Assembly: GCA_023489435.1 (NCBI GenBank) | Contig: JAMDCA010000014.1 | Coordinates: forward strand, 1 to 59,846 | DNA: 59,846 nt | Reading direction: 5' to 3' | DNA from: Thermoplasmatota archaeon | Lineage (GTDB): Archaea > Thermoplasmatota > Thermoplasmata > Thermoplasmatales > Thermoplasmataceae | In this document: positions 4,544-25,110 of the stretch, one piece after another | How the letters are laid out: every line of letters begins with the position of its first letter | How positions within the stretch are numbered: position 1 is the first letter of the stretch | The notes under the pieces: generated by a model | Told to the model about the DNA's origin: nothing | Seen by the model: the letters and a program-made list of their open reading frames with translations, nothing else | Database searches by the model: none | Program-made: the position numbers and the translations under genes

Positions 4544-7500
4544 TGTGCACTCCAGTATTCCCGTATTTCCCTGAAATCTGATTTTTCTCCAGCTCTGAGG
4601 GTCTGGACAAATGCATCCGCCAGTTTCAGGTTGGTGATCAGAGGTATGTTCTTCCTGATTGCAAGTTTTCTTATCTGGTAGCCGTCCTTGATTGACCCCG
4701 ACCTAGAGCTGGGTGTGTTTATGATCAGATCGGGCCTGTTTTCGCTTATAAACCGGTCAATTCTGGGTTCCCTCACATCCTCCATTTTATAGATGACTTC
4801 TGCATCAAGGCCGTTTTCCCTCAGGAAATGCCTGGTCCCTGGGGTGGCAACCAGTTTGTGCCCAATCTTCGAGAAATATCTGGCTATATCAAGCAGCTGA
4901 TCCTTATCCTTGTCGCTTACTGATATTACCACGGATCCCTTGCTGGGCATCCTGACATTCATCATTTTCAAGGCTTTTCCAAGAGCCTCTTCCAGAGTCC
5001 TGCCTGCTGTCATCCCCTCTCCTGTGGACTTCATCTCAGGGCCAAGTATTGCATCAAGGTCCAGGAATCTGTTAAACGGGAATGCAGGTATTTTCACGAA
5101 ATAGCTTTTCGGCTCAACCTCTTTCTGTGCCTTGAGGTTGCCAGTAAGCATTGCATCGATTCCCACTGATATCCAGTCTACGCCTGTGGCCTTGCTTACA
5201 AATGGAAGAGATCTGCTTGCCCTCGAATTCAGCTCAATTACGAAAATATCGTTGCCCTTCACTGCAAGCTGGAGATTGGAGAAACCCTTGAGTTTATATC
5301 TTGCCACAAAGGTGGCAACAAGGTCCCTTATCCTTTCCCTGGTCCTATTGTCAGGCGAGTCGGGAGAAAGTGTCATAGTGGCATCGCCAGAATGTGTCCC
5401 CGCCTCCTCTACGTGTACGCATATACCAGATATCACGAAATTCTTCCCATCTGATACAAAATCAACATCAATTTCTGTGGCATCCTCCACGTACCTGCTC
5501 AGGAGAACCGGGAAGCCTGGCCGTTCCTGGAGAAGTGCTGCTACCCTGCCGTATACCTCCTCCTTCTCGTTGATAATATCCATGGCCCTTCCCCCTATTA
5601 TGAAGCTGCTCCTCACAATGACCGGAAGAGGGGTCTTCTCAATGGCATCCACTGCCCCCTGCATGTTTGTAACAGTCACAAATTCAGGCTGCTGTATGCC
5701 ATATTCCCTGAGCGCCTCTGCAAATTTCTTTCTGTCTTCAATAGCCTCAATGCTCTGTGGAGAAGTCCCCAGAATTACTTCATCCCCGAATATTTCCCTG
5801 ATCTGCATTGCAAGGTTCTGGCCAGTCTGGCCTGAGAACTGAATTATGATCCTGCAGGGAGATTCTCTCCTTATGATGTTGCAGATATGTTCCAGGGAAA
5901 GTGGTTCGAAATACAGAACGTCAGAAACGTCAAAGTCTGTTGAGACAGTTTCGGGGTTGCTGTTGACCATCACCGTCCTGAAGCCGCTCTCCCTCAATTT
6001 AAGAACTGCCTTAACCGAGCCGTAGTCAAATTCCAGTCCCTGTGAAATTCTGTTGGGGCCCGAACCAAGGACCACCACAGTGTCTTTTTTCCTGTCCATA
6101 TTAAGAAATTCGTTTTCCTGGTCAAATGTGGAATAAAGATATGGGGTCTCGGCAAAGAATTCTCCTGAACATGTGTCAATGGCCTTGTATGCAGGGAATA
6201 TTCCCTGTTTCTCCCTCTCCTTGTAAATTTCTGTTTCCCGGATCCCGGTGAATGCGGAAATGAGGGAATCTGGAATGCCGGTGTACTTGAGTTCCTTGAG
6301 ATTCCCCGGCATTACTCCGGTGCTGAGTTCCGCAAGCCTGTCGGTGACATTCTTCAACTTCTCAGTAAAGTAAATTGCATATCTGGATAACTTGCTCACT
6401 TCTTCAGGGCTCCATTTCCTGAGCAGTGCTTCCATTATTGCATAAATCCTCAGGTCAGAGGGTATCCTGATAAGTTCCCTGAGTTTCTCATCCGAAACCG
6501 GGACCCTCAGAGTCTGGGATTCCTTGGTTTCCAGAGAGGCTATCGCTTTGAAGAAAGCTTCTTCAAATGTCCTCCCAATGCCCATGACTTCCCCGATGGA
6601 TTTCATCTGGACTCCAATTTTCCTCTCCACCTCAAATTTGTCAAACGGCCATCTTGGAATTTTTACTGTTATGTAGTCCAGTGAAGGCTCAAATGCCGCG
6701 GAAGTGTTCTTTGTTATTGGGTTGATGATCTCAGTCAGGTTATACCCCACAGCAATCTTGCTTGAGGTTCTCGCGATGGGGTAGCCACTTGCCTTGGAAG
6801 CTAATGCAGATGACCTGGAGGTCCTCGGGTTCACCTCAACGATGTAATACTCCCCAGTTTCCTGATTGAGCGCAAACTGTATGTTGCATGCCCCCCGTAT
6901 TCCCAGTGCTGAAATGACCTTGATTGCGGAATCCCTCAGGTTGTGGTACTCCTGATCGCTCATTGTCTGTGATGGTGTGACAACAATGCTTTCGCCTGTG
7001 TGGACTCCCATGGGGTCCAGGTTTTCCATATTACATATGGTAATGCAGTTTCCCGCATTGTCCCTTATAACTTCATACTCGATTTCCATTATCCCTTCAA
7101 GGGATTTTTCCAGTTCAAGCCCCTCATCAGGATAGACCCTGAAAAACTCATTTGCGAGAGCCGTAAGTTCCTCCCCGGTCCTTAGGATTTTGCCTCCAGA
7201 ACCTCCCAGAGAGAAGGATGTTCTTACAATCAACGGATAAATGTCAAGTTTCGGAATCTCCACTTCATAATTGCTGATAGTAAGCCTTGCTGACGGGGCC
7301 ACTGGTTCGTTTATATCAAGCATGAGCCTGTGGAATTTCTCCCTGTCCTCCGCTGTGTCAATTGTTTCTATGGGTGTTCCGATGATCCTCACGGGATATT
7401 TCTCAAAAATTCCTCCTCTCTTCAGTTTGAGAGCAAGATTGAGTGCTGTCTGTCCGCCCATTGTGGGAAGAATGGAGTCAACCTTTTCCTTTGCGATGAT

Positions 7501-23020: not shown

Positions 23021-24427
23021 TCAGGAGATGGCATTTGGCCTTTTCCCGGCCTCCTGTACAATGAGATTATAGTAATCCCTGAAAAGGAGCGGTAAGAACG
23101 AGACGGCACCAAGGATGATGCTTATGAGAATAAATGCACCACGCAATGTAAGCAGTTGAATAAGGGCTCCCCCTATTGCCCCTGAGACAAATATTATGCT
23201 AACCCCAAAGGTGCTCAATGTGCCGGAGACTCTCCCCCTCAATTCCTGGTCAACAATCCCTATCATTACAGTGTTTATAACCACGTTCAACACACCTACG
23301 AGAATTCCTATACCGAGAAACGCAGCGTAATCGAGGTAAATAGAGTCAATGTTTCCTATTGCAAAGAGAAGAAGCGCGGTTGGGAAGATAGTGCCAATGG
23401 AATAGCGCCCAACCCTTCCCCTGGCCTTTGAGCCCAGCAAAGAACCGGCAATAATTCCAATAGTTACACTTAGAGCCATAGTAGTGTAATATATTGCGGG
23501 TAGCCTGAAATGCACTTCAACTAGATATACAAGAAAAATACCTACGGTTCCGATTGTTAGGTTGATAGCCATGATAATTATAACCAGCGCCTTCAACCTT
23601 GAGTCGCCAAAAATAAACTTCAAACCTTCTCTTACAGAAGATTTAATGTCCTTCTCCCGTGCGACATTTTCAGTCTTTTCACCCTTCAATAGAATAAGGG
23701 GTGCGATGGAAACGCCGAATATGAGTGCAAAGCCGTAAATTGCAAATTGGAGGCCAAGCAGTATGAGCAAACCCGATATTGCATAACCAGCTGCCTCAGC
23801 AACAGCAGTAACGCTTTGCAGCAGCGATACTCCTGACTGGTATTGCGGCACTTCCAGGAACTGCTTTGTCCAGCTCGACCTGATGGAATTGAGAACATCC
23901 GTAGACATGCCGACTACAAATGCCACAAAATAAATAGAAAGAACCTCCAGTACAAGGCTGCTGTATAATATGGCTATGAACAGAGCAAAGATCGAAAAAG
24001 TCCTGAAGATAGAAATTGAGATTGCAAATGTCCTTTTGCTGAAAAGTCTGTCAACAATGGCGCCAAATACGAAACTGAGCACAAGTGGAAGTGCAGACAT
24101 GCCGTCTGCAAAACCGGCAAGAACAGGAGACTTGGTCAATAAGAGCGCGATCCAGAGTATTGCGAGTTGGAATCCTGAAGTTCCGGCCCTTGAAATAGCG
24201 CTGTTATAAACGACAAGCCTGTAATTTCTGGAGAAATGGCTCTTAGCGGTTTTAAGTGCTTCGGCTGCCAGCTCATTCACCTCCAAATGGCTTTCTTGAG
24301 TTAAAACTGGAATATAGTGAGACAAATTTTCCTGAGGAAGGAACTTCTTGCCCTTCCAGTATTCTGATAATAGAAACTGAATATGGCCGGATTGAATGCA
24401 GAAGGCTTTTGACGGGGCTTGGGCCAA
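23021..24427 (-). CDS. MFS family transporter
   Basis: A major facilitator with about 12 predicted hydrophobic segments, probably an exporter of drugs or metabolites. A family-type loop GFADGMSALPLVLSFVFGAIVDRLFSKR follows the second segment. The first membrane helix starts only around residue 75, leaving a long soluble N-terminus; starting instead at the GTG at 24280 would give ~419 residues, a more usual size. However, the TTG at 24427 lies 25 bases from the left half of the palindrome at 24448-24468, which fits a leaderless start. It is divergent from an HTH regulator, which probably controls it. Substrate unknown. Confidence 0.75.
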   Translation of the reverse strand: MAQAPSKAFCIQSGHIQFLLSEYWKGKKFLPQENLSHYIPVLTQESHLEVNELAAEALKTAKSHFSRNYRLVVYNSAISRAGTSGFQLAILWIALLLTKSPVLAGFADGMSALPLVLSFVFGAIVDRLFSKRTFAISISIFRTFSIFALFIAILYSSLVLEVLSIYFVAFVVGMSTDVLNSIRSSWTKQFLEVPQYQSGVSLLQSVTAVAEAAGYAISGLLILLGLQFAIYGFALIFGVSIAPLILLKGEKTENVAREKDIKSSVREGLKFIFGDSRLKALVIIIMAINLTIGTVGIFLVYLVEVHFRLPAIYYTTMALSVTIGIIAGSLLGSKARGRVGRYSIGTIFPTALLLFAIGNIDSIYLDYAAFLGIGILVGVLNVVINTVMIGIVDQELRGRVSGTLSTFGVSIIFVSGAIGGALIQLLTLRGAFILISIILGAVSFLPLLFRDYYNLIVQEAGKRPNAIS

Positions 24428-24447
24428 ACATATAATTAGTATTCATT

Positions 24448-24468
24448 CGTATAAATTTCATTTATACG
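24448..24468. promoter_or_regulatory. 21-base palindrome with facing TATA-like half sites
   Basis: CGTATAAAT (24448-24456), a 3-base spacer TTC, and ATTTATACG (24460-24468) form a perfect inverted repeat between the divergent transporter and HTH regulator. Each half read outward contains TTTATA, so the palindrome may be both promoters and operator. The left half is centred 25 bases before the transporter TTG; the right half is 38 bases before the regulator ATG. Confidence 0.65.
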
Positions 24469-24501
24469 TAAAAACTAAATTACTATATTAACTTCACTGT
24501 C

Positions 24502-25110
24502 ATGGAGCAGGACGATAAGTTTGAGGTTCTGGTTAATTCCTACCGCAACCCTACAAAATTCAGCATCATAGTGATCCTGGCTGAACAGGGGAAAATGACT
24601 GTTACCCAGATGTCGGAATATATCAGCGTGAGCCGATCAAACCTGTACCATTTTGTTTCACAACTTCTTGAGGACGGCATACTCAATGAACCTGAAGTAA
24701 TTCCAAAAAAGAACTACGTCGAGAAATTCTACTCCCTTAACGAGAAACTATTCAAGGCGTCAGAATATGAACGGTGGGGGGAACTTCTCAAAAGCAAATC
24801 TCTCGAGGAAATCAGAGGTTTGAGCAGTTCCATCCTGCTTGGCTATTCAATGATGCTGAACATGGCAGCCAACAGGTTCGCCCACTCCAGTGATGAGGAA
24901 ACTGCTAAACTGAAGGATTGGCTTACCAGTGAAATGCCATGGTGCACAACATATTCCCTGCTGAGCAGAAAAAGCACTGATTCAATTGCACCTGCAGTTA
25001 AGGCTCTGAATGATACTCTTTCTGCGACTTCTGAAGACACAGAAGACCGGCAGCATTTCAGCAGGCTCCTGGTTGTGTTCCTTCCATTCCTTGGTGGGCA
25101 AAGGAATTGA
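24502..25110 (+). CDS. Winged-helix transcriptional regulator (ArsR/TrmB-like)
   Basis: A 202-residue regulator. Residues about 5-75 form a winged helix (PTKFSIIVILAEQGKMTVTQMSEYISVSRSNLYHFVSQLLEDGILNE, then a wing with EKFYSLNEKLFKA). The C-terminal ~120 residues are helical, have no recognisable ligand domain and probably serve in dimerisation or sensing. It is divergent from the MFS transporter with a perfect palindrome between them, so autoregulation and control of the transporter are likely. A hydrolase follows 30 bases downstream on the same strand. Confidence 0.75.
   Translation: MEQDDKFEVLVNSYRNPTKFSIIVILAEQGKMTVTQMSEYISVSRSNLYHFVSQLLEDGILNEPEVIPKKNYVEKFYSLNEKLFKASEYERWGELLKSKSLEEIRGLSSSILLGYSMMLNMAANRFAHSSDEETAKLKDWLTSEMPWCTTYSLLSRKSTDSIAPAVKALNDTLSATSEDTEDRQHFSRLLVVFLPFLGGQRN

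Follow-up and report, generated by a model that had tools for sequence, protein, structure and literature searches.

A conserved palindrome between divergent MFS transporter and winged-helix regulator genes is a candidate operator in Thermoplasmata

Introduction

Does a perfect palindrome between two divergently transcribed genes of an archaeon serve as a pair of TATA boxes, or is it the operator of the regulator encoded next to it? The question is raised by a contig of a Thermoplasmatota archaeon (JAMDCA010000014.1), of which a stretch of 59,846 nucleotides (the window) was analysed. A sequence-only reading of this DNA had proposed that the two halves of the palindrome are face-to-face TATA boxes forming a compact switch. 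Here, we examine the palindrome, its two neighbouring genes, the core promoters predicted around it and its counterparts in related genomes.

Results

The palindrome and the genes that flank it

The following features of the locus were considered.

23021..24286, minus strand: MFS transporter of 421 amino acids with the proposed start TTG 24286, from homology and an MFS_1 match
24448..24468, no strand: palindrome CGTATAAAT-TTC-ATTTATACG, the proposed regulator operator, from exact symmetry and conservation in relatives
24448..24456, minus strand: left half-site, which reads ATTTATACG in the window; its counterpart ATTTATATG carries the transporter ATG in many relatives
24460..24470, plus strand: right half-site ATTTATACGTA, its conserved extension included; no other part is as well conserved across relatives
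24502..25110, plus strand: winged-helix (ArsR/MarR-like) regulator of 202 amino acids, from profile matches and predicted fold

The 21-base palindrome is exact, as the sequence-only reading had stated, with two arms of 9 bases each (24448-24468) that are 100% complementary and enclose the 3-base spacer TTC. When up to 3 mismatches were allowed, CGTATAAATNNNATTTATACG matched the window once, with 0.00 matches expected, and in the draft genome the palindrome had no second copy at up to 2 mismatches and two other sites with 3 mismatches each. Dinucleotide shuffling of the 74-base interval gave an equal perfect inverted repeat (9-base arms, loop 0-10) in 71 of 5000 shuffles (1.4%). By the same definition, the window holds eight perfect inverted repeats in total, two of them with a 3-base loop; the sole other 9-3-9 repeat is TTTGAAGAAAGCTTCTTCAAA at 6547-6567. 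Taken alone, the symmetry of the palindrome is only modestly unusual, and the argument therefore rests on conservation between orthologues. No RNA element at the locus matched Rfam up to the gathering score.

That a transporter and a winged-helix regulator diverge from the palindrome was borne out by profile searches. The regulator matched HTH_5 of Pfam (E 1.2e-6; 28.7 bits versus a gathering score of 22) and also exceeded the cut-off for MarR (26.4 versus 24.6), so that it may belong to either subfamily; with the ArsR/SmtB metalloregulator profile NF033788 it obtained 18.8 bits, below the cut-off of 55. Its fold was predicted confidently (mean pLDDT 86.5), and a fold search with the model returned Kfla_6221 first and PH1932 (PDB 1uly and 2cwe) third and fourth. 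PH1932, an ArsR-like winged-helix protein of Pyrococcus horikoshii, was also the best sequence match of solved structure, for the DNA-binding part (E 8.7e-12), a likeness confined to profile positions 10-85 and accompanied by whole-chain TM-scores of 0.29-0.35.

The divergent neighbour matched MFS_1 of Pfam (E 8e-21), and with a start at 24286 the match amounted to 75.5 bits against a gathering score of 33.4. Assignment to the H+ antiporter subfamily 2A0121 (TIGR00900) failed, at 114 bits versus a cut-off of 319.6, despite an E-value of 9.7e-33. The sequence-only reading had let this gene begin at TTG 24427, 25 bases from the left half-site. The frame from that codon is not kept in relatives: in loci L002 and L003 it is closed near the palindrome, opening just 102 nt and 177 nt from the centre, respectively, and homology begins later. 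The aligned start column reads TTG/TTG/GTG and corresponds to window position 24286. Comparison of the sequences thus points to a transporter start at about 24286, with nearby alternatives possible; TTG 24427 very probably plays no such role, and the 25-base spacing, which depends on it, finds no support in the relatives.

Between the palindrome and the transporter start, a frame of about 52-59 codons was noticed in the window (24273-24446, minus strand) and in L002, L003, L004, L036, L037, L038 and L040. It spans from near the palindrome to the transporter start, and its end adjoins or overlaps that start; translational coupling to the transporter is possible. A conserved leader peptide was considered and rejected: frames of similar length recur, yet codon-position bias is absent.

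Conservation of the site in relatives

A relative of the regulator was found in 33 of 300 genomes of the class (E 1e-8 or better). Nearly all loci read carry the same element upstream of it, with the consensus CATATAAAT-NNN-ACTTATACGTA, and at most loci a divergent MFS gene lies on the opposite side. In a collection of named organisms that was added, sites of the same form are present in Ferroplasma acidarmanus, Acidiplasma aeolicum, Cuniculiplasma and Thermoplasma. The sequence-only reading was to be refuted if related species had both genes and lacked the palindrome; they retain it, an outcome in favour of that reading. From its centre to the regulator start codon there are 43-48 nt in nearly all relatives; the spacer is 2 bases long in some lineages (L046, L048 and L050). 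Conservation upstream of orthologues at a fixed spacing is one property of the autoregulated palindromic operators of archaeal repressors, and the site has it.

Conservation is uneven along the element. The 34 non-redundant loci show hardly any variation in the right half TTATACGTA, with identities of 85-100% across relatives at operator positions +4 to +12, and more variation in the left half. Against the three nearest genomes, changes have built up on the transporter side, and the regulator side is almost unchanged. At 19 of the 34 loci the left arm contains the transporter ATG, which is 7-8 nt away from the centre and opens frames of 395-415 codons, so there the left arm is not the TATA box of that gene. 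The arm has no usable ATG in the clade of the window, where the gene starts farther off, mostly at 94-190 nt. These two states of the start codon need 3 changes on the tree, compared with 12 in shuffles.

On the protein side, the best-kept stretch of the regulator is the recognition helix around TVTQMS and RSNLY(H/Q). A histidine at residue 50 goes with T at operator position +3 at 19 of 21 loci and a glutamine with C at 38 of 43, counts that take in near-identical loci. Both splits track a deep branch of the tree, and the joint change may perhaps be a single event; it backs the pairing of regulator and site and is not independent proof of it.

Extra matches to the motif in relatives were about as frequent as matches to a reversed control motif, which gives no sign of a wide regulon. 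A regulator that acts locally is expected to leave no second good copy of its site in the genome, as was found.

Some loci stand apart. Two metagenome-assembled genomes labelled Caldisphaera and Thaumarchaeota (L071 and L065) have the same regulator, site and divergent transporter; both are placed inside the Thermoplasmata tree, and we read them as gene transfer or mis-binning. Two bacterial loci from Ktedonobacterales (L073 and L074) combine a distant relative of the regulator with a divergent MFS-like frame and lack the palindrome. In L014, L007 and L018 a second, half-site-like TTTATATG occurs to the left, about 20-28 nt from the centre of the palindrome, where the opening codons of the transporter encode DLYE, and may be a further half-site or merely conserved protein sequence.

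Core promoters predicted around the palindrome

Ferroplasma contributed 203 upstream regions, among which TTTATA is commonest 28 nt ahead of the ATG and follows an A-rich stretch. A directional BRE/TATA matrix was built from these regions together with 157 from the genome under study, whose own promoter matrix is weak and has a broad position peak. Applied to the window, the matrix predicted two core promoters.

24468..24483, plus strand: predicted regulator core promoter GTAAAAACTAAATTAC, matrix score 6.6, predicted start 24503
24468-24474, plus strand: its BRE, GTAAAAA, from the matrix
24475-24482, plus strand: its TATA-like element CTAAATTA, from the matrix
24483..24498, minus strand: predicted leftward core promoter AGTGAAGTTAATATAG of the transporter, matrix score 5.7, predicted start about 24463, inside the palindrome
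24491-24484, minus strand: its TATA-like element TTAATATA, from the matrix

Both core promoters and both transcript starts are matrix predictions, with scores just below the upper quartile of real upstream regions. Scored as TATA boxes, the half-sites reached 1.5 (left) and 3.8 (right), compared with 6.6 on the plus and 5.7 on the minus strand nearby. The predicted leftward start falls 3-5 nt to the right of the palindrome centre at 29 of 34 loci; the rightward one falls within 2 nt of the regulator start at just 17 of 34. In the window, the proposed transporter start lies 177 nt from the predicted transcript start. Most likely, on these predictions, the palindrome overlies the start site of the transporter and touches the BRE of the regulator, and the core promoters cross. 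The start-codon spacing of 51 nt in Ferroplasma would fit one TATA box serving both genes; such a single box was set aside, with a score of 4.0 against 7.3 for the overlapping box on the opposite strand (L057).

Discussion

We consider it probable that the palindrome serves as operator for the regulator encoded beside it, which, as a dimer, would repress the transporter and limit its own production until freed by a ligand. The sequence of the site, its symmetry, conservation and fixed spacing and the joint change of helix residue and operator base are observed. A regulator dimer would occupy both half-sites, covering the predicted transporter start and abutting the BRE of the rightward promoter of its own gene. 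So placed, it would block the loading of polymerase at the transporter and of TFB at the regulator, and the transporter would stay repressed and regulator synthesis damped for as long as no ligand freed the dimer.

Other explanations were weighed against this operator. The half-sites might be two TATA boxes, one per gene, with the dimer and TBP in direct competition for them on both strands. They are TATA-like in appearance, and no leftward box outscores the left arm in L041, L052, L054 and L059, four lineages for which the idea may hold. In the window, however, both halves score below the neighbouring sites, and the ATG within the left arm of many relatives and the loss of TTG 24427 as transporter start also speak against TATA boxes, which makes this explanation unlikely as a general one. 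What survives of the compact switch is that the site is palindromic, goes with the regulator, separates two divergent genes and overlaps predicted core-promoter sequence; the halves as TATA boxes do not survive.

It is improbable that the regulator, bound to the palindrome, activates the transporter, for example by aiding TFB or TBP, and represses itself. There is a precedent in CopR of Pyrococcus furiosus, an octameric, metal-sensing protein that binds between divergent promoters, activating copA and lowering copR (PMC7830388), but the palindrome contains the predicted leftward start, a placement that suits repression better. Chance symmetry of AT-rich promoter DNA, conserved through its core-promoter elements only, is very improbable: the shuffles show that such a repeat can arise, but the right half, CG included, is better conserved than either predicted TATA box, and the spacing is constant over many genera.

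The operator favoured here has partial counterparts among known systems. YtrA(Sa) of Sulfolobus acidocaldarius, a member of the GntR family, uses a semi-palindrome that lies beyond BRE and TATA box and covers the transcription start, a placement also predicted for our palindrome; from there it represses both its own operon and a further membrane-protein locus (PMC6746942). It differs in regulator family and motif, and its site was footprinted whereas the present one is predicted. The copR/copA pair shares with our locus the divergent regulator and transporter genes, the semi-palindrome between both promoters and self-repression, but the CopR site lies upstream of the BRE (PMC7830388). In bidirectional promoters of P. 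furiosus, one TATA box in a single AT-rich promoter gives rise to two opposed starts, spaced by about 50 bp and by 49 bp in the case that was tested (PMC6640164), whereas here two overlapping boxes on opposite strands score better and the gene pair is conserved.

More tentatively, and with some doubt, we suggest that two core promoters cross within about 35 bp, exclude each other and are both occupied by a single operator dimer. In many species the arm also holds the transporter start codon, so that regulator binding and the starts of transcription and translation would all fall to the same bases; the operator is fixed over many genera, and the start codon lies within the arm or far away, depending on the lineage.

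The candidate operator is real, conserved and ordinary in kind, and it is new as a site: literature searches found no study of it and, as far as they show, it had not been mapped before in this acid-loving archaeal group. It provides Thermoplasmata with a defined candidate operator sequence and a regulator family, open to testing in cultured Ferroplasma or Thermoplasma. The locus also teaches that, where archaeal DNA is rich in AT, resemblance to a TATA box is a misleading guide when taken alone, as the relatives make plain: there the half-site goes with the regulator, and in many species it is translated.
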